From NCBI GenBank assembly GCA_023511625.1, contig JAIMBD010000001.1, positions 124,001-188,000 on the forward strand: DNA of 64,000 bases. The letters are read 5' to 3'. The notes under the pieces are model-generated. The model was not told the origin of the DNA and did not search any database. It worked only from the letters and a program-made list of their open reading frames with translations. The DNA comes from Bacillota bacterium. Lineage in GTDB: Bacteria; Bacillota; Sulfobacillia; Sulfobacillales; Sulfobacillaceae. The first letter of the stretch is position 1. Each line of letters begins with the position of its first letter. The position numbers and the translations under genes are program-made. Positions 4,931 through 45,645 of the stretch are shown here, piece by piece.

Positions 4931-5467
4931 TCAGAAGTTTTCCCTATAGGTGCAGGTGGCGCAGAGGACATAAGGGCGCAAGGTAGGACTGTGGCAGCGC
5001 TGACAGGGGTGGTAATCCAGGCGGAACCATTCCCGGGAGGCCGCCAAATGGCTCCGGGCCGCGCGATCCAGGGCCTCGACGGCACTTTGGGCGCGCGCCG
5101 TGGGAAGCCCGCCTCCGCCCCGTTCTCTGCCCTCGCCCATCCCGACCGGCGCCCGCCGAAAGGCGCGCGGCTCGACCCGCACCTTCAAGTCCTCAATCGG
5201 CCCCACGGTTTCGGCCACTCGGGCATTGAGGCGCTGCAGGATTTCTCCTTTCCAATAGGTCAACTCCTGCGCCCAGGTCGATGCCGGCACGGCCACCACC
5301 ACCGTCCGCTCCCGCAATCCCCATAGGCGGGTATGGCGGCTGAGCGTCTCTCCCAGCGCTTCGCGCCAAACGGCCGCCACTGCCGCCCCGAAGAGCGCCG
5401 GCTGCCACCCCCACGCTTCGGCCTGGCGCCGCAGGATGCCGGCCAACGCCATGGGAGCGCGGGTCAC
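4931..5467 (-). CDS. dciA: DciA/DUF721 family helicase-loader-like protein with C-terminal zinc ribbon
   Basis: A 178-residue protein. The N-terminal 100 residues match the DUF721/DciA fold (GILRRQAEAWGW, then WREALGETLSRHT, then VVAVPASTWAQEL). DciA is the ancestral operator that loads replicative DnaB helicase where DnaC or DnaI is absent. The C-terminus adds four cysteines as CxxC (155, 158) and CxxC (169, 172), a predicted zinc ribbon. The start ATG overlaps the recF stop (ATGA), so translation is coupled to recF. The position between recF and gyrB matches actinobacterial dciA. Function is inferred from family and place. Confidence 0.75.
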   Translation of the reverse strand: MTRAPMALAGILRRQAEAWGWQPALFGAAVAAVWREALGETLSRHTRLWGLRERTVVVAVPASTWAQELTYWKGEILQRLNARVAETVGPIEDLKVRVEPRAFRRAPVGMGEGRERGGGGLPTARAQSAVEALDRAARSHLAASREWFRLDYHPCQRCHSPTLRPYVLCATCTYRENF

Positions 5468-10139: not shown

Positions 10140-10351
10140 TGGTGGGCAAAGGGTTGATCTGGCTCATTCGGGGCTACCAGCGGTGGATTTCGCCCTGGAC
10201 CGGGCCGTCTTGCCGTTATGTGCCGACTTGCTCCCAGTATGCGGTAGAAGCGATCCAGCGGTATGGGGCGTGGCGAGGGGCTTGGCTTGGGCTCAAGCGC
10301 ATCCTACGCTGTCATCCGTTGCATGCCGGCGGATACGATCCGGTACCGTAG
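10139..10351 (+). CDS. yidD: Membrane protein insertion efficiency factor YidD
   Basis: A 70-residue protein with the family core [24 protein letters not shown] and a [13 protein letters not shown] ending. The three conserved cysteines are present. YidD assists YidC-dependent membrane insertion. The ATG at 10139 or the in-frame GTG at 10136 could be the start; both overlap the rnpA stop, so translation is probably coupled. Confidence 0.93.
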
Positions 10352-24461: not shown

Positions 24462-24537
24462 GCGGAAGTAGTTCAGTTGGTAGAACGTCGGCTTCCCAAG
24501 CCGAAAGTCGCGGGTTCGAGTCCCGTCTTCCGCTCCA
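24462..24537 (+). tRNA. tRNA-Gly (anticodon CCC)
   Basis: 76 bases including an encoded CCA. The acceptor arms GCGGAAG and CTTCCGC pair fully. The anticodon stem TCGGC/GCCGA encloses TTCCCAA, giving anticodon CCC for the glycine codon GGG. The T arm GCGGG-TTCGAGT-CCCGT is standard. It has its own strong promoter and terminator. Confidence 0.96.
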
Positions 24538-36692: not shown

Positions 36693-39600
36693 CTACCCGG
36701 TGGCGCGCGGCGCTGCCTGAGCCTCCTGCACGAACGCGCACAGCGCGTTGACCCCGGGCAGGGCCTCCGGCTGGGCGGGCAAGGCGTCGAGGAGCGCGGG
36801 GCTGCCGACCAGGACCGCGAGCCCCTGGGCGCGCGAGATCGCGACGTTGATGCGGTGGAGGTTGAAGAGGAACGCCTGGCCGTGGGGCAGGTGGTCGGGG
36901 TCGGAGGCGGTCAGCGAGTAGAGCACCACCGGCGCCTCCTGGCCCTGGAAGCGGTCGACGGTGCCGGCCTGCACCCCCTCGGGCAGGGCGGCCTGGAGCC
37001 GGTGGACCTGGGCGTTGAAGGGGGCGACCACCAGGATGTCGGCGGGCGCCAGCGCCCGTTCGCGGCCCGAGGCCTCGCGCCACCGGCACCGGAGCAGCTG
37101 ATCCACGATGGCGGCCACCGTCTCCACCTCCTCTGGTGCGGTGGTGCGGTGGCCTTGGTGCGGCACCTCCACCCACCGCAGCCCGGCCCCGCCCCAGGGG
37201 GCCGGCCCCAGGACCGTCTGCCGGCCGCAGTGCTCGGCGCTGCCGAGCCGCCCGCCGTAGGCGATGCGGCCGAGGTAGTCGGCGATGGCGGGGTGGCAGC
37301 GGCGCGTGACGGGGAGGAAGAGGCCGAGGTCGGGGGGCATGGTGGGCCGGCCGGCGAGGAGGTGGCCCAGGGCGGAGACGGCCACGCCGTCGGGGTGATG
37401 GGCCTGGACGGGGTGGGGGAGCTGCTGGGGGTCGCCGAGGAGGATCAGGTTGCGGGCCGCGCCGCCCACGGCGAGCGTGTCGGCCAGGGCGAACTGGCCC
37501 GCCTCGTCGACGACGAGGTAATCCAGCTGGCGGTCCCACTCCGCGCGGGCAAAGACCCAGGCGGTGCCGGCGACGAGCCGCGCCCCCTGCCGGAAGGCGC
37601 GCCAGCCAGCCTCCGAGCCGGTGACGACGGGGACGGGCTCGCCGGGCGCGGGCGCTTCGCTCCGCCCCCCGACCCGGACGCCGGGCAGGGGCTCCGGCCC
37701 CCAGGCGCCCTTGATGGCGGCCAGCAGGTTGCGGATGACGAGGTGGCTGGGGCCCGTGACGCCCACGGTGTGGCCCGCCCGCAGCAGGGCCGCGACGACC
37801 CGGCCGCCGAGGTAGGTCTTGCCGGTGCCGGGCGGCCCCTGCACGGCGAGGTAGCTCTGGTCGAGGCGCAAGGCCAGGGCGACGGCCTCCGCCACGGGGT
37901 CGCTACCGGGGGCCGGGAGCGCCGCGCCGTGGGCGAAGCGGGGCGGGGTGCGGGCCAGGAGCGCCGCGAGCGCCGGGTGGGCGCCGGGATCCGCGGCGAG
38001 GGCCAGGGCCACGCGGTGGACGGCGCGCTGCAGGGGCCGAGTGTCGACCGGCCCGCCCGCGATGAGGTGGAGGGGGTGGCTCTCGTGGTGGGCGGGGCGG
38101 CGCAGCACGAGCCGCCCGCGGCGGAGGTCGAGGGCCTGGAGAACGCCCGCCTCCCGGCCGGTCTCGGGGTCGACCACGGTGTCGCCCACGCGGATCTTGA
38201 CCTCCTGCTCGGCGGGGAAGGCGTAGGCGTCCGCGACGGCGCGGGAGCCGGCCGGCGCTCGTTCCAGGTGCTCCAAGTGGGCGATGGCCTCGGGGTCGTC
38301 CCACCACGCCTCCGGCGACCCTGCTCGCCGGCGGTAGAACGCCTGCCAGGCGACCCGGTCCTCCCGCCGGTGCCACCCGCAGCAGCGGGCGAGGAGGTCG
38401 GCCTGCGGGCCCCGGCCCACCGCCGCCGCGGCCGCGACCTCCTGGGCCGCCCGCTCCTGGGCCTCCACGGCCTCCGAGGGGGTCGGATCGAGGCGCGGCG
38501 GGCGCTCGGCGATCCCGGCTGCCGCCCGCAACCCCTCCAGCCAGGCGCGGCACTCGGCGGTGGAGCGGCAGTCGTCGGCGTTGTACCGGGCCAGCTCCGC
38601 TAGCAGCGCGTCGTCGCCGGTGGCCAGCCACCGGCGGTAGGCCGCCACGCTGGCGCCGCCCTTCTGGACGGCGGTGGTGCGGCCGGCGCCCCGGTAGCGG
38701 TGCTCCAGGGCCTCGATCGCGTACGACGCCTCGGAGACCTGCACCGCCTCGCGGACGACGCGGTAAAGGTCCACCAGGACCTCGCCCCGCAGGAGGCGGT
38801 CGACTGCGGCCTCGCGGGTGCCGTGGCGGCCGGCCAGGCGCTGCAGCGCGTCCACCGCGTCGTGGTTGTAGTCGTGGTTGTAATGGTAGACATGCATCCC
38901 CTGATGCTGCGTCCAGCGGGCCATCACCCAGTCGATGAACGCCGCAAACGCCACCTGCTCGCCCTCGGGGGTGTGGCCCCAGAGGCATCGGTACTGCCAG
39001 GCGCCGTCCTCGTCCCAGTAGCCCCAGCCCCACAGATACTCGCGCTGCCCACCCGCGGCCCAGGGGTCGCCCTCGAGGGCGAAGAAGACGTCGCCCGGGT
39101 CGGGCTCGGGGAGGCGCGCGAGGCCCCGGCCGGGGGCGGGGGGCAGGAGCTCCCAGCAGGGGGCGCCGGTCTCCCGCGCCCGGTGCTGGAGCCGGGCCTG
39201 GCGGACGAGGCGCTCTAGGGGCGCGGCCCCGATCCCGGGCACCGGCCGCGCCGGGTCCCAGGCGGCGAGGTCGGCCAGCGTGCGGACGCCGGCCTGTCGG
39301 AGCTTGCGGATCTGGTCGCGGCGGATGTCGGCCACCAGGCTCAGGTGGTCGGCCGCCCGGCGCTGGGCGTCGCACAGGGCCTGCCACCGGCACTCTCCGC
39401 AGGCGGCGATGCGGTCAGGGCAGGGGAGGGCGTCCGGGAGCGGGGCTGTGGCTGCGGCGAGGAGCCGCCGCCGGGCACGCTCCACGAAGGCGTCGGCGTG
39501 GGCCACGGGGAGCCGCTCCTCCGCCCCCGTGCCGAGGATGAGCGCCATGGACGCCGGCCGCCGTCCCTGGATCTTGTCCAGCAAGAGGCTGTCGAAGGCC

Positions 39601-40040
39601 GTCTGCGCCCAGGCCAGCACCCGTGGGTGGTGGGCGAGCGTCGCGTCCCAGACCTCGTAGTGCCAGGGGCCGAGGTCCGAAGCCCCCTCGACTCGCACCA
39701 GGAAGTCGGGCCGCCCGAACCAGGGCGGGTCGAGCAGGACGCCTTGGGCGATGACCGGCGCGCCCGCGCGCATCGCGGCGGCGGTGGCGGCGGCCTGGGC
39801 CGCGGGATCGCCATCGCCGGGGATCCGTGCCACGGCCCGCCCCTGGGCCTCGAACCGGGTGGCCGCGGCGGCCTCCTGGGTCCCCGCCAGGGCCTGGACC
39901 ATGGCCCGCTCGGTGTCGTCGCCTGCCGGCGGCCCAGCGATTCGTCCCGCCTCCGCCCACCGCACCCAGGCCAGGCGGTGCGGGCAGGCGAGGAAGTCGA
40001 CAAGGTCGGTAGCGGTCCACCATCGTGCAGACCCGGCCAT
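36693..40040 (-). CDS. TM0106-type RecB-like nuclease / Upf1-like helicase fusion
   Basis: A 1115-residue protein from the ATG at 40040 (after AAGGGGGG). Order: RecB-like nuclease region (about 1-200; GRPDFLVRVEG and YEVWDATLA), cysteines CGECRWQALC near 215, an RNase H-like region (about 310-500; FFALEGDP, DLYRVVREA, YNADDCRST), then an SF1 helicase with Walker A GPPGTGKT near 738, DEAG near 843, GDPQQLP, DRFQGQE and NVAISRAQG. TM0106-family proteins normally carry a D-x-K in the nuclease strand and FDIEGDP in the RNase H part; here the lysine position is threonine and the first aspartate is alanine, so the nucleases may be inactive. The gene is much richer in G+C than its neighbours. Confidence 0.85.
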   Translation of the reverse strand: MAGSARWWTATDLVDFLACPHRLAWVRWAEAGRIAGPPAGDDTERAMVQALAGTQEAAAATRFEAQGRAVARIPGDGDPAAQAAATAAAMRAGAPVIAQGVLLDPPWFGRPDFLVRVEGASDLGPWHYEVWDATLAHHPRVLAWAQTAFDSLLLDKIQGRRPASMALILGTGAEERLPVAHADAFVERARRRLLAAATAPLPDALPCPDRIAACGECRWQALCDAQRRAADHLSLVADIRRDQIRKLRQAGVRTLADLAAWDPARPVPGIGAAPLERLVRQARLQHRARETGAPCWELLPPAPGRGLARLPEPDPGDVFFALEGDPWAAGGQREYLWGWGYWDEDGAWQYRCLWGHTPEGEQVAFAAFIDWVMARWTQHQGMHVYHYNHDYNHDAVDALQRLAGRHGTREAAVDRLLRGEVLVDLYRVVREAVQVSEASYAIEALEHRYRGAGRTTAVQKGGASVAAYRRWLATGDDALLAELARYNADDCRSTAECRAWLEGLRAAAGIAERPPRLDPTPSEAVEAQERAAQEVAAAAAVGRGPQADLLARCCGWHRREDRVAWQAFYRRRAGSPEAWWDDPEAIAHLEHLERAPAGSRAVADAYAFPAEQEVKIRVGDTVVDPETGREAGVLQALDLRRGRLVLRRPAHHESHPLHLIAGGPVDTRPLQRAVHRVALALAADPGAHPALAALLARTPPRFAHGAALPAPGSDPVAEAVALALRLDQSYLAVQGPPGTGKTYLGGRVVAALLRAGHTVGVTGPSHLVIRNLLAAIKGAWGPEPLPGVRVGGRSEAPAPGEPVPVVTGSEAGWRAFRQGARLVAGTAWVFARAEWDRQLDYLVVDEAGQFALADTLAVGGAARNLILLGDPQQLPHPVQAHHPDGVAVSALGHLLAGRPTMPPDLGLFLPVTRRCHPAIADYLGRIAYGGRLGSAEHCGRQTVLGPAPWGGAGLRWVEVPHQGHRTTAPEEVETVAAIVDQLLRCRWREASGRERALAPADILVVAPFNAQVHRLQAALPEGVQAGTVDRFQGQEAPVVLYSLTASDPDHLPHGQAFLFNLHRINVAISRAQGLAVLVGSPALLDALPAQPEALPGVNALCAFVQEAQAAPRATG

Positions 40041-40859
40041 GGGAGGATCCCCCCTTGCCCTTCGCAACGGTTGCCAGGGCCAGGGATTCGACGCCGGGGC
40101 GGCGGATCCCTACCTCGGCGGGCGGGGCGTGCTCCACCCCATCAATCGCCATCCTTCGTGCCACGCCCTGCGAGTGGTGGCTCGGGAGCGTGAGCAGGAT
40201 TCCGAGGCGGATCACGAAATGGGCCGTCGAATCCGACAAAGCAGGGAAAGGGCGGCGACATGGGCGCCTGAGACAGGCGGGGGCCGGGCGCGGCGGGTGG
40301 GAGAGCGACGGGACTGCCTCTTTGCCGTCGTGGCCTTGCCCGATGGCCGCAAACTCGGCCTCCGCCGGTGCAGGCATTTTGGAAACCTTACGGTCCCTCT
40401 GGCTGCGATGGCCATGGACGCGTGGCCGGCCCTGGTATCAATGGGGGCACGTGCCCCCGCACGCCCAACGGGTGTGGGAAGGGCTGGGCATCCCCTGGTA
40501 TGTCCGCGGCGAACCCAGCTAAGCCACCCCCAAAAAATCCAGACAACCGGCGACTATAAGACGCGGAAGCCGAGTTCCTCCGTTCGGCCCCAAGACCTGC
40601 GCTAGGCTCCGTCTTGAACGGCGCCGTCGCGACCTGAAATTTTGGCCTCAGACCAAGTCAAAACCGCCTATCCCGCTCCCACGCCGTTCCCAGCCGTTCC
40701 GAGGCGCCCGCTCTGCCTCTTTGGGGATTCACCGCGATCGCGGTAATCTACGGAATCCCGACAAAATAGTAATAAATTCTGGTATGGCGGATTTGGTTTA
40801 TGATCCCTTATAATGCCGTTGCTTCGCCGAGCGATGGTTGCTTAGGAGGGAGGGAGAGC
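40041..40859. other. Non-coding spacer with palindromes and CocE-gene promoter region
   Basis: About 820 bases with no supported gene. A perfect 16-bp palindrome GGGGGCACGTGCCCCC lies at 40443-40458, and ACCGCGATCGCGGT (14 bp) at 40731-40744. The right end is A/T-rich (ACAAAATAGTAATAAATTC) and contains TATAAT at 40809-40814, 45 bases before the next gene; no convincing -35 box. Confidence 0.5.
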
Positions 40860-42521
40860 ATGGCGGAGTTTACCTATCGGTTTCGCGCGCCAATTGCCCC
40901 ACCCGAGGCGGGGGGGATCGGTATGCCCGCCTATCGCCAGACGGTGGCCGACGGGATGCGGATTGAACGCGACGTGGCCGTCCCCTTGCGTGACGGCACC
41001 CGGATCTACATTGACCTCTTTCGGCCGGTTGACGAGTCGAACCCAGTCCCCGTGTTAATCGGCTGGTCGCCGTACGGTAAGCACGCCCGCATCCAATACG
41101 ACGTCTTTTTCCCTGGCAGCGAGGTCAATCCGGACCATGTTTCCTCGTACGCCGCCTTCGAAGGCCCCGACCCGCTCTATTGGGTCCCCCGCGGATACGC
41201 CGTCATCAACGCCGACATCCGCGGCGTGTGGAATTCCGAGGGTAAGGCCACATTCTTCTCGCCTGAGGAGGCCCAAGATTTTTACGACCTCATCGAATGG
41301 GCCGGAACCCAACCGTGGAGCAACGGCAAGGTCGGCTTGACCGGAGTGTCATACCTCGCGGTCATGCAGTGGAGGGTCGCCGAACTCCACCCGCCGCACT
41401 TGGCCGCCATCAACCCCTGGGAGGGCTGGACCGACACCTACCGCGAGGTGGCTACCCACGGTGGCATTCCCGACAGTTGGTTTTGGCCGTTTTTGCAGAC
41501 GCAAATGACTTTCGGCCGCTTTGAGGTGGAAGATCTGGTCGCCGAGACCCAAGCGCATCCCTTTTTCGACGCGTTCTGGGAGTCGAAAGCGGCGGCCCTC
41601 GAGCGGGTTACCGTTCCCGCTTATGTGGTGGCCAGTTTTTCGGACCAGGGACTACATCTGAGGGGCACTCTGGAGGGATTCAAGCGCATCGCCTCGCCAC
41701 AGAAGTGGTTGGAGGTCCACCGACGCAAGAAGTGGGCTTACTATTATCAGCCCGAGAGTAAAGAGCGCTTGAAGTGGTTCTTTGACCATTTTCTTAAAGG
41801 AGAATCGGACGCGGTATTGTCGTGGCCTCGGGTGCGCTACGAACTGGCCCATCGGTTTTACGTCGGCACTTGGCGCGAAGCCCGTGACTGGCCCCTGCCG
41901 GAAACCCGCTACATCAAGTTCTACCTCGACACTGCCCGCGGAACCCTAGATACCGCGCCGGCCCCGACGACCTCCCACGCCGTCTACCACTCCCTGGGCG
42001 GTGGACCCGGACCTCACCGCGCCACCTTCGACTGGGTCTTTACCGAGCCGACCGACGTGGTCGGCCACATGGCGGTGCGCCTTTACATGGCCGCGGAAGA
42101 GGGGGAGGACCTCGATGTCTTCGTCGCCATTTGGAAACTGGACCGAGAGGGACAGGTGGTGCCATTCCCGTACTACGCGCAATTCAATGACGGGCCGGTG
42201 GCCTTGGGGTGGATCCGCGCTTCGCACCGCGAGCTCGATCCGGAACGGTCCACGGAATTTCAGCCGGTGCTGGCGCACCGCCGCGCACTGCCGGTGCGGC
42301 CGGGCGAAATCGTGCCGCTGGACATCGAGATCTGGCCGTCTGCGACCCACTTCGACGCGGGCGAGGGCCTGCGCCTCGTCGTGCAGGGAACCGACGTCAA
42401 CAAGTACCCCAAACCGGCGGTGTACTGCCGCCACGAGGAGAGCGTCAACCGGGGCCTGCACCGGGTCTACACCGGTGGTCCGTACCCCGCTTACCTACTG
42501 CTGCCCATTGTCTCTGCCTAA
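40860..42521 (+). CDS. CocE/NonD family hydrolase (X-Pro dipeptidyl-peptidase-like)
   Basis: A 553-residue serine hydrolase. The N-terminal alpha/beta domain has VPLRDGTRIYIDLFRP, DIRGVWNSEG and the nucleophile GVSYLA (Ser164). The C-terminal jelly-roll domain (about 370-553) is typical of PepX_C (TFDWVFTEPTDVVGHMAVRLY). Family members cleave cocaine esters, acyl amides or prolyl peptides; the substrate is not predictable. No signal peptide. The ATG follows AGGAGGGAGGG. The sequence is lower in G+C than the preceding gene. Confidence 0.88.
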   Translation: MAEFTYRFRAPIAPPEAGGIGMPAYRQTVADGMRIERDVAVPLRDGTRIYIDLFRPVDESNPVPVLIGWSPYGKHARIQYDVFFPGSEVNPDHVSSYAAFEGPDPLYWVPRGYAVINADIRGVWNSEGKATFFSPEEAQDFYDLIEWAGTQPWSNGKVGLTGVSYLAVMQWRVAELHPPHLAAINPWEGWTDTYREVATHGGIPDSWFWPFLQTQMTFGRFEVEDLVAETQAHPFFDAFWESKAAALERVTVPAYVVASFSDQGLHLRGTLEGFKRIASPQKWLEVHRRKKWAYYYQPESKERLKWFFDHFLKGESDAVLSWPRVRYELAHRFYVGTWREARDWPLPETRYIKFYLDTARGTLDTAPAPTTSHAVYHSLGGGPGPHRATFDWVFTEPTDVVGHMAVRLYMAAEEGEDLDVFVAIWKLDREGQVVPFPYYAQFNDGPVALGWIRASHRELDPERSTEFQPVLAHRRALPVRPGEIVPLDIEIWPSATHFDAGEGLRLVVQGTDVNKYPKPAVYCRHEESVNRGLHRVYTGGPYPAYLLLPIVSA

Positions 42522-43272
42522 GACCTCACGGTCGCCTGCGAAGGGCCGACTCCCGTGCCGACATCGTTCCGTGCCCCGCGGTGGGTTGCACTGCGGGGCA
42601 CGCCATCGAGGTCCGCTTCATTTTTCTACGAATTTCCCCAACGATGCTTGTCCCGGATTTTCCGACTGTCGATCAGCTGGGCTCAACTCGCATGTACAAC
42701 GGCACGCCCAAGGCCGTTAACCCCTGTCGCCTGTTGCGCATGGGGGTTGTGACCCCACGGATGCCGGTGGCATCCATGAGGCCACCGGCTTCGGTGCCCA
42801 GAGGGTGGTAGTGACAGGAGGCTCGGTTGGAGGGACGGCATCTCAATGGGGTGGGGAGCCGGGGAGTCGGCTGAGGATTCGTCGGTTCAGACGGTGATCA
42901 CAGAATGAACGGGATCTGGACATGCCCCAAATGATCTATAGACCGTAGGCCAATGAGCAGCTTTGTCAAGCCTCACTTCGGGCCCCATCTTGCCTGCGGA
43001 AATCCCCCCTCTCATCTCCTCGGCCGTGTCTCGGGTGCTGCTGTTCCTAGATGGAGTGGCTTTCCTGCCTGATTAAAGACCAACGAAAAAAGCTTGTTCC
43101 GCGGGCACTAGCACACGGCGAATGGCCCTCATAGTCCATTTCGCGACCCCAGGGAGGTTCGCAGAGCCCCTCGTCGTGCGCGTTTACGCGATGGGTCGTG
43201 GAGACCGTGGCCGGTCACCACGCGACGGCTGGGAGCCGTAGAGGTTCCCCGCCGCTACGGCCTTCCGCGCCG
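42522..43272. other. Non-coding spacer with hairpins
   Basis: About 750 bases without a supported gene. Inverted repeats: GTGCCCCGC (42571-42579) with GCGGGGCAC (42593-42601), followed 18 bases later by ATTTTTC; GCCGGTGG (42763-42770) with CCACCGGC (42782-42789); and GCCGTAG (43235-43241) with CTACGGC (43255-43261), just after the minus-strand peptidase gene. The first may terminate the hydrolase transcript. AACGAAAAAAGCTTG near 43081-43095 is an A-rich patch. Confidence 0.5.
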
Positions 43273-44718
43273 TTAACCCAAGATCATGAACCCATCGCCA
43301 GACGAACCAGACTGGCCCGGCGCGTAGAGCGCCGCCACATCGTAGACCAGGTTGGCCACGTTCGGCGGGCCGAAGCCGATCTGGGCTGTGAAGGGCGCGG
43401 GCCAGCCAAACGCCTGGTCGAGGAACGCCGGGAGCACCTCGGGGGCGGGGCCGGTGGCGTTGGCCACATGGTACAACACATCCGGCACGATGGCACCCTG
43501 CAGGTCCGCGCCATAGGTCTGGGCGTAGTGCGCCTGGACCAAGGCCCAGATGCCCGCCCAGCAGGGGGCGGCGAGGCTTGTGCCACCGCTGGGTTGGAGG
43601 ACGCCGTTGGCGACGATCGGCGCGTTCCATGCCAGGAAGCTCACGTCGGGTAGGTAGCGGTGAACCAGGCCGGGCACCAGGGCGTCGAGGGGCGAGCCCA
43701 AGAGGCCTAAACGGACCCATTCGTCGGCCTGCCACCGGGCCATGGGATAGTCCGAAAAGCCGTAGCCCCCGGCGTCCCAGGGGTATGGCACCCCTTGCCA
43801 CCAGACGTCCTGGCCGAGCGGCGTGATCATCGTGCCGCCCACGGCGACCATGTATTCATTGGCGGCAGGCCAATCCAAGCGGTCTTGTGTGCCTGCCAAG
43901 CCAAAATCGCCAGCGGCGGCAAATAGGCCGACCCCCGCCTTCGCCGCGCGTTCGATCTCGAGGTTGTCGGCGGGGGCGGTGAGATAGCCCTCAGCGCGGA
44001 ACCCCCTGGGATCGTAGTAGGAGAGAGAGAAGGCAGCGGCGCCAATCGCGGCGGCGTACCGCACGGCGTGGTTGTAGGCGTCCCCCGTGTAGGGGGCTTC
44101 ATACAGCACGAGGTGGGCTTGCGGCGCCATGGCGTGGACCCACTCCACATCCATGGTAGCCTCCAACTGCGCAGCCCCCACGATGCCGATCGGGCCGTCA
44201 GGCGCCACCGTCGCTGCAGAGACCGGCGGCAGGCCAAACAGCATATCGAACTGGGCCACATCCGACCAGAGGACATCGCTCGCCTCGTACAACACGATGG
44301 TCTGCCCCTGGCCAAAATCGCCCTGCTGGAACACTGGCAGCACGTGGTAGTGACGATAGACGAAGAAAGGGTCGAACAGACCCTGACCGGTGATCTGGCT
44401 GCGCACGACAGCATCGGGCGTCACGGCGAGGGCCGGCCCCGTCCACATCGACCGCAGTGGTCCTGCGCCGATGTCGGCCTCCAACGTGTACAGGCCGCCC
44501 GGCAGAGCCTGCGGGATCTGCAAGATGGCCGGGGTGGTGGTCGCCGACAACAGGGGATACATTGCACCGGTTTCGGCGGAGATGAGAAACCAGAACACGG
44601 AGGCGCCCGGCGGCGCGTTAGGCGCGGCCACCGTGATCGACTGCCCGGCCGACACCGTCCAGGCAGGTTCGGGCGTGGGCACCCCCTGAGCGGCGGCGGA
44701 GGCAGGCCAGGCGGCCAA
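43273..44718 (-). CDS. Sedolisin-type serine-carboxyl peptidase (S53), start uncertain
   Basis: A 481-residue exported S53-like protease from the TTG at 44718. The acid-type catalytic residues are visible: Glu and Asp in QLEATMDVEW near residue 186 and Ser in SGGTSLAAP near 379; the oxyanion aspartate may be in AAGDFG. The kumamolisin-like prodomain is very short or absent. The sequence upstream in the same frame encodes a clear signal-peptide core (RRFLTAVAAAAVLAAWP) but there is no start codon between it and a TGA at 44778; a GTG at 44774 in another frame hints at a missing base. Such proteases work at low pH outside the cell. Confidence 0.75.
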   Translation of the reverse strand: MAAWPASAAAQGVPTPEPAWTVSAGQSITVAAPNAPPGASVFWFLISAETGAMYPLLSATTTPAILQIPQALPGGLYTLEADIGAGPLRSMWTGPALAVTPDAVVRSQITGQGLFDPFFVYRHYHVLPVFQQGDFGQGQTIVLYEASDVLWSDVAQFDMLFGLPPVSAATVAPDGPIGIVGAAQLEATMDVEWVHAMAPQAHLVLYEAPYTGDAYNHAVRYAAAIGAAAFSLSYYDPRGFRAEGYLTAPADNLEIERAAKAGVGLFAAAGDFGLAGTQDRLDWPAANEYMVAVGGTMITPLGQDVWWQGVPYPWDAGGYGFSDYPMARWQADEWVRLGLLGSPLDALVPGLVHRYLPDVSFLAWNAPIVANGVLQPSGGTSLAAPCWAGIWALVQAHYAQTYGADLQGAIVPDVLYHVANATGPAPEVLPAFLDQAFGWPAPFTAQIGFGPPNVANLVYDVAALYAPGQSGSSGDGFMILG

Positions 44719-44778
44719 TACCGCCGCCGCGGCGACCGCCGTTAGGAACCGTCGGACAAACCGCGCCGTAGCACCTCA

Positions 44779-45645
44779 CCTCGCGACGGAGGATTCGCGG
44801 GATTCCGTCAGATTTCCTGCTGGTGAGGAGTGGGCTACGGCCTAGAACTATCGGTCGAAAGCCGGCGCTACCAGACGGCCTGCTGCGCGGTGCTAGACGA
44901 CACTGTGGTGGGGGACGCCCATGCGGCGGTGCTCCGTAGCTCTGGGCTCCGTTCCCCAGTCGATCCGTCTGAGGGCACGCCGCCTGCCGGACAGCCGAGA
45001 CGGGCGGTGGGGGAGGGGCTTTTTCGCCGGGGACTGGGGCAGATCGAGACGCCCTGGCCTTCAGGGGTGAAAGCATCCCGAAGGCCGTCTTTGTCGGGAC
45101 TCAGGGCGCGCCGATTCCCTCGCGGCTTCCCAAGATGCGGCATAGCGCCCACCGCCTCCGTGGGCGCCGGTGAGCGCCTGACGCCCTTCGTGGCAGGGGT
45201 GACGTCCCAAAGGTTTCGGGCGGCCGCCGGCTCGGCGGTCTTTTCCCCTCCCCGCCTGCCCGTCCCAATCGAGAGTCGGCCGGGCCTCTTGCGATGGCAC
45301 GGTCTTTAAGAGGGCAGAGCGCGCTTTGGGCACCCCTGTCGCCACCATGTGGTGGCCGTCTTGCGTGGACCGCCGTTTTGCGTTTGGAAGAACGCCCCCG
45401 GGGCGCCCCATGTCGACTGCTTCCGCAAGGCCCCTTTTGGGGGCAACTCGGCCAGAACCCGCGGGGCCTTTTCGAGAGCAGGGGAGCCTGGTCGCCCTCC
45501 CACCCATCCTCCAAAACCCTGGGGCTTAGGGCCGCCGCTGGGGCGCGGCCGGTCCGAGTCGCCCGCCCCGAAGCACTAAGGGAGCAGGTCCTAAAGCCGG
45601 GGACCGGCTCATATCTAGTCCCCAAAAGGAGGGCAAGGAGCGAGC
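44779..45645. other. Long non-coding spacer with hairpins
   Basis: About 870 bases with no supported gene in any frame. It contains a hairpin, CCGCC-GGCTC-GGCGG followed by TCTTTTCCCC, at about 45227-45251, which is terminator-like on the plus strand. CCCGA/TCGGG arms lie near 45077-45098. GGGGAC and GTCCCC arms flank CGGCTCATATCTA just before the htrA ribosome binding site (45600-45625). The latter could affect htrA expression. Confidence 0.45.

Follow-up and report, generated by a model that had tools for sequence, protein, structure and literature searches.

Kumamolisin-As and kumamolisin (PDB 4ne7, 1sio and 1t1e), members of MEROPS family S53, are the closest described counterparts of the peptidase studied here. 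For TPP1, both the catalytic residues (S475, E272 and D360) and a C-terminal Ca2+ site (D517, V518, G539, G541 and D543) are given in the literature (PMC2914745). The nearest described parallel to the start site of the gene is Streptomyces sigR, which starts with GTC; for this codon, translation was shown by experiment, and the non-canonical starts of both sigR and infC (ATT/ATC) are reported to be kept low by IF3 (PMC5472188).

The gene compared with these systems lies on the minus strand of a 64-kb window (the whole stretch of bacterial DNA that was analysed). Like sigR, it has a non-canonical codon at the start position, but this codon is ACG and, in contrast to the GTC of sigR, it is known from sequence alone. 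Our best explanation, to which we give a probability of about 0.85, is that this is the gene of a secreted S53-type peptidase whose start codon was substituted and whose frame was not shifted.

The start site of the peptidase gene

Counted from the ACG, the peptidase frame has 498 intact codons and a TAA (43273..44769, minus strand). The first-pass annotation had described a classic signal peptide core that lies upstream of the first usable start of this frame, and direct reading bears this out. The frame reads TGA(44778) GGT GCT ACG(44769) GCG CGG TTT GTC CGA CGG TTC CTA ACG GCG GTC GCC GCG GCG GCG GTA TTG(44718): the TGA (44776..44778, minus strand) closes the frame, the TTG (44716..44718, minus strand) is its first canonical start codon, and no ATG, GTG or TTG is found between the two. 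This stretch translates as ARFVRRFLTAVAAAAVLAAWPASAAA, by eye a typical signal peptide, and the complete signal-peptide-like stretch of about 28 codons (44686..44769, minus strand) has an R-rich start, a hydrophobic core and an ASAAAQ end, and is conserved in the orthologue described below.

Six nucleotides before the ACG (44767..44769, minus strand) is a Shine-Dalgarno-like GAGGTGA (44776..44782, minus strand), which contains the in-frame TGA and which is a seven-base match to the canonical anti-Shine-Dalgarno complement (the host's own 16S may differ from this consensus). With Shine-Dalgarno-like motif, start and signal peptide, the start site is complete but for the ACG at 44769. The window contains 14 copies of GAGGTGA (7.0 expected) and three of the combination GAGGTGA-N3..9-ACG (0.77 expected; 5 of 100 shuffles reach three): the motif pair alone thus proves nothing and the case depends on the orthologue. 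The leader mRNA pairs the Shine-Dalgarno-like motif in its minimum-energy fold, yet the stability of this fold is like that of shuffled sequences (z 0.34).

A mini-frame of ten codons in another frame (GTG...TAA, 44742..44774, minus strand) overlaps the start site. Its GTG at 44774 opens MLRR, as the first-pass annotation had stated, and the orthologue has a mini-frame of equal length at the equal place (TTG...TAA); its presence in both genomes is probably due to chance.

The orthologue has GTG in place of ACG

Three of the 42 genomes of the order that were searched have a match at E <= 1e-25: the window's own genome, a genome of the same genus (G001, 86%) and a genome of the same family (G025, 52%). 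The copy in G025 has an N-terminus that is extended by a long stretch, with an ATG close to the beginning of the open frame, and is uninformative on the ACG codon, and only one close orthologue is available among the 42 genomes, the G001 copy (L036, identical to L004). It is found on JAIMAE010000060.1 of Bacillota bacterium HOT.CON.99, a metagenome-assembled genome (MAG), with a contig name that gives a coverage of 238.8.

The orthologous protein is 86% identical to the window protein, and the 498 codons of the two genes can be aligned gap-free. The codon aligned with the ACG is GTG, and so is the codon that follows. The orthologue shares the architecture of the window gene, including the signal peptide, the Shine-Dalgarno-like motif (GAGGTGAT, 5 nt before the GTG) and the upstream in-frame TGA within this motif; it differs in its GTG start and in its neighbouring genes, which are unlike those of the window. 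The presence of GTG at the position of the ACG in a gap-free alignment indicates a substitution of the start codon, with no base lost or gained, and no indel or frame change is needed to read the protein. Of the three causes that the first-pass annotation had offered, frameshift mutation, sequencing error and recoding, only the second survives, and it does so as a substituted and not as a lost base.

The position and the frame of the ACG, the codon of the orthologue and the intact, conserved coding sequence are read directly from the two loci. The direction of the change, towards ACG, is assumed from a single close orthologue, and the ancestral codon could have been ATG or GTG. Most likely, the change to ACG, real or apparent, would be recent, and the allele would since have been either nearly silent or weakly translated from the ACG by the ordinary initiator tRNA. 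Three readings of the ACG at 44769 are thus left: an allele that lost its start recently, a start that is used weakly, or an error of one base in the sequence. We rank recent loss slightly ahead.

Through a substitution of this kind, readers and gene callers can mistake a secreted enzyme that is intact for a truncated or frameshifted one, and a single close orthologue suffices to tell such a substitution from a frameshift.

The coding sequence is not decayed

Between the window gene and the orthologue, dN is 0.077, dS is 0.432 and dN/dS is 0.18 over the whole gene. The ratio is 0.12 in the catalytic domain, 0.43 in the N-terminal region and 0.46 in the signal stretch, the latter from few sites. 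It reaches 0.74 over the first 50 codons, and this value counts against a mere substitution of the start codon, as do the five differences within the 15 bases that surround the start, a number beyond what one isolated sequencing error would produce. The higher divergence of the 5' end could mean that constraint is relaxed at this end, though both lineages have a share in it.

When the G025 copy (L005) is used as outgroup, the window branch receives 7 replacements and the branch of the orthologue 11; at sites that are identical in the other four of the five aligned proteins, the window protein has no replacement and the orthologue has one. Neither an internal stop nor an indel interrupts the window gene, replacements are not in excess on its branch, and the pattern of substitutions indicates a gene that is not decayed and is under purifying selection.

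These data bear on the possibility that the gene is a young pseudogene, which has lost its start and is unexpressed but still undecayed. We regard this form of the substitution as tenable, at less than even odds. The low number of replacements on the window branch indicates that the gene is not long dead, and the lack of decay speaks against a pseudogene in general, but a very recent loss remains compatible with both. Loss of the enzyme may be tolerated: the window's genome has two other open frames with a match to the Pro-kumamolisin activation domain (Pro-kuma_activ) over the cut-off and with, by eye, S53-like catalytic motifs (one of them, L001, is cut at the end of the locus). However, neither is matched by the window protein at E <= 0.001 (the window's own genome, G000, gave a single match), and proteins this distant may not replace it. 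No sigma-70-like promoter was found for the gene, a weak result as only 0.4 were expected by chance.

A pseudogene would also fit a horizontal movement of the gene. Its dS to the sister genome G001 is 0.43, compared to 1.46, 1.02 and 1.40 for three neighbouring genes, the first of which (40800-42521) shares no more than 60% identity with its G001 match, so that the two are perhaps not true orthologues. The matches of neighbouring window genes are on other contigs of the sister genome. The block that can be aligned to the DNA of the orthologue (43269..44825, minus strand, 85% identical) consists of the gene, 56 bp upstream of the ACG and 4 bp downstream of the TAA. Low dS and a homology block that barely exceeds the gene suggest that a small piece of DNA has moved horizontally, with little upstream DNA. 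If the promoter was left behind in this way, loss of the start codon would be free of cost. A fourth neighbour has a still lower dS, which weakens the argument: a predicted nuclease-helicase (RNase_H_2 and AAA_11/AAA_12 domains; 36693-40067, minus strand) has a dS of 0.24 to the sister genome, below that of the four other genes compared. Nuclease-helicase and sedolisin look more recently shared with the sister genome than the surrounding genes.

Viral contigs contained no close relative of the peptidase and plasmids contained no match to it. The only repeat in 43000-45100 is a direct pair of 18 nucleotides (78% identical, at 43609 and 44602); it lies within the gene, and no repeat flanks the gene.

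A possible sequence error

The ACG could also have arisen from the misreading of one base in sequencing or assembly, or represent a minority variant of a mixed population, with a canonical codon as the true start; we consider this possible, though less likely than not. An error would agree with a gene that shows no other damage and evolves under purifying selection, but the bases next to the ACG differ from the orthologue too, indicating that the region has truly diverged.

A survey of 43 window frames against their loci in the sister genome gives a rough base rate only, as the frames certainly include some that are no genes, and the shared codons some that are no starts. Under a tight rule, 13 of the 43 frames lack a shared canonical start, the peptidase gene among them. 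A looser rule leaves seven frames; the peptidase gene then had a shared GTG, but merely an internal one with no Shine-Dalgarno match. These seven and one further frame were inspected by eye: the frames at 5467, 27555, 33817 and 52436 apparently start at or near the matching place, the frames at 10141, 21137 and 25854 resemble shadow frames, with stops in the homologue, and the frame at 24489 was assigned to neither group. A region-wide loss of start codons was rejected, with the peptidase gene as the one clear case recognised among the 43 frames, and its isolation in this crude survey is in keeping with an error.

Possible initiation at ACG

The third way to account for the ACG, as a working but weak start that is held low by IF3, we find rather unlikely. 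It is made conceivable by the Shine-Dalgarno-like motif at normal spacing, the undecayed coding sequence, the presence of an IF3 gene in the genome (one PF00707 match, 7.8e-35, in an open frame of 177 amino acids) and the precedents of sigR and infC. An engineered E. coli variant with ACG in place of ATG is reported to initiate less than ATG and CTG (PMC10449621), and one metagenome study set its gene finder to accept ACG, with a statement in its methods that CUG, GUG and ACG occur in up to 10% of prokaryotic ORFs (PMC6314593). On the other side, the E. coli reconstituted system is reported to tolerate solely Watson-Crick pairs at codon positions 1 and 2 (PMC10158994); the mismatch at the middle base is thus disfavoured, which argues against much translation from ACG. 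The literature searched contained no demonstrated natural bacterial ACG start. The non-canonical codon is also not kept in close relatives: the sole close orthologue, in the sister species, has GTG, and weak initiation is thus not a conserved trait.

Nothing points to an altered initiation apparatus. An anticodon-loop pattern of initiator tRNAs that accepts CAU or CGU has two matches in the genome, both with CAU, and ARAGORN confirms a tRNA-Met (cat) at each; no CGU version was matched. An ACG-reading initiator tRNA was therefore rejected as an explanation, and so was a loss of IF3. One IF3 match and two CAU initiator-type tRNA-Met genes give no sign of a changed initiation machinery.

More doubtful than weak initiation as such is the idea that the ACG at 44769 is in daily use and that a good Shine-Dalgarno motif, read with the ordinary initiator tRNA at a low, IF3-limited rate, would keep a secreted protease scarce that lacks a prodomain and is hazardous to the cell itself. 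If initiation at ACG were proven, the few non-canonical bacterial starts characterised so far would gain one more.

Translation from the TTG at 44718, the first canonical start codon in frame, which would yield a cytoplasmic or truncated protein, is most improbable: orthologues that begin at this TTG had been named as the result that would overturn the first-pass annotation, but the aligned codon of L036 is TGG, the 20 bases before the TTG contain no Shine-Dalgarno-like motif, and the signal peptide would be cut. A base lost between the GTG at 44774 and the signal peptide, or a programmed frameshift that joins the two frames, was suggested by the opening of MLRR in the neighbouring frame but is effectively ruled out by the orthologue, which has its own in-frame GTG, no gap, and a mini-frame that likewise stops at TAA after ten codons.

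An S53-type peptidase with no detectable prodomain

The substituted-start gene encodes a predicted S53 catalytic domain (43330..44394, minus strand) with Glu 44163, Asp 44151, Asp 43908 and Ser 43578 (first bases of the codons) at the positions expected for S53. In an alignment of six proteins (A1; residues numbered with ACG as 1), the corresponding E203, D207, D288 and S398 are invariant and align with TPP1 and kumamolisin-As. By its catalytic Glu-Asp-Ser, oxyanion Asp and subtilisin-like domain, the protein is a putative member of S53. With a profile made from A1, the catalytic domain matches kumamolisin-As (4ne7) at 3.2e-53, sedolisin at 6.8e-36 and TPP1 at 7.7e-32; with the window sequence alone as query, TPP1 is matched at 2.1e-8. 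The sole Pfam match is to the related subtilase family Peptidase_S8 (8.6e-6), and NCBIfam gave matches below the cut-off only. The product would be exported and is expected, from these similarities, to be an acid endopeptidase of the kumamolisin/sedolisin type.

In contrast to kumamolisin-As and kumamolisin, the window protein has no detectable Pro-kuma_activ domain (PF09286, no match up to E 10). In place of the prodomain there is an N-terminal region of about 100 amino acids (~97; 44395..44685, minus strand) with no Pfam match; the very short prodomain of the first-pass annotation was a real peculiarity of the protein, better described as the absence of a detected activation domain. Up to E 1, PF09286 is likewise not matched by L036, L005, L037 and L038, although the same search recognises it in L040 (7.5e-12), and this indicates a prodomain-less subgroup, as judged by profile searches, that includes the window protein and these four relatives.

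The relatives L037 and L038 are prodomain-less S53-type proteins with other N-terminal regions, which have matches to PKD and Cu_amine_oxidN1 below cut-off. In L037, the PKD matches (below the curated cut-off) are in the place that corresponds to the N-terminal region of the window protein. A PKD/Ig-like N-terminal domain common to the window protein, L037 and L038 found no support in a profile comparison (probability 2.7%, E 0.017). L007 also has no detectable prodomain, and its catalytic domain follows soon after an apparent signal peptide (by eye).

A possible further difference to kumamolisin-As and kumamolisin concerns the Ca2+ site: judged from the alignment only, an Asp is present near the first position, but the window protein, L036 and L005 have nothing that corresponds to the second Asp. 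The quality of a model computed with AlphaFold2 from six sequences was poor (mean pLDDT 35.6).

A flagellin with an inserted peptidase domain next to the orthologue

The orthologue has a neighbour with a Peptidase_A4 domain, which belongs to the glutamic-peptidase/eqolisin family. This neighbour, a flagellin (JAIMAE010000060.1, 4948-6444, minus strand; Flagellin_N 3.3e-19, Flagellin_C 1.6e-8) with the domain inserted in its middle (7.3e-17), lies downstream of the sedolisin orthologue at a distance of about 500 bp, in convergent orientation. Relatives of the inserted domain are absent from the window's own genome and present in 28 of 34 genomes of the family (E <= 1e-5); the check for flagellin domains covered the G001 copy. 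The known proteolytic flagellins are described as carrying a metallopeptidase (PMC5595980, PMC7643111), and among the titles found on flagellin and glutamic peptidases none was on such a fusion.

The same sister genome has a second fragment (G001:C87:3603-3788), part of an open frame of 140 amino acids, which shares 64% identity with the peptidase over residues 281-336 (numbered from the TTG); it is possibly a remnant paralogue.
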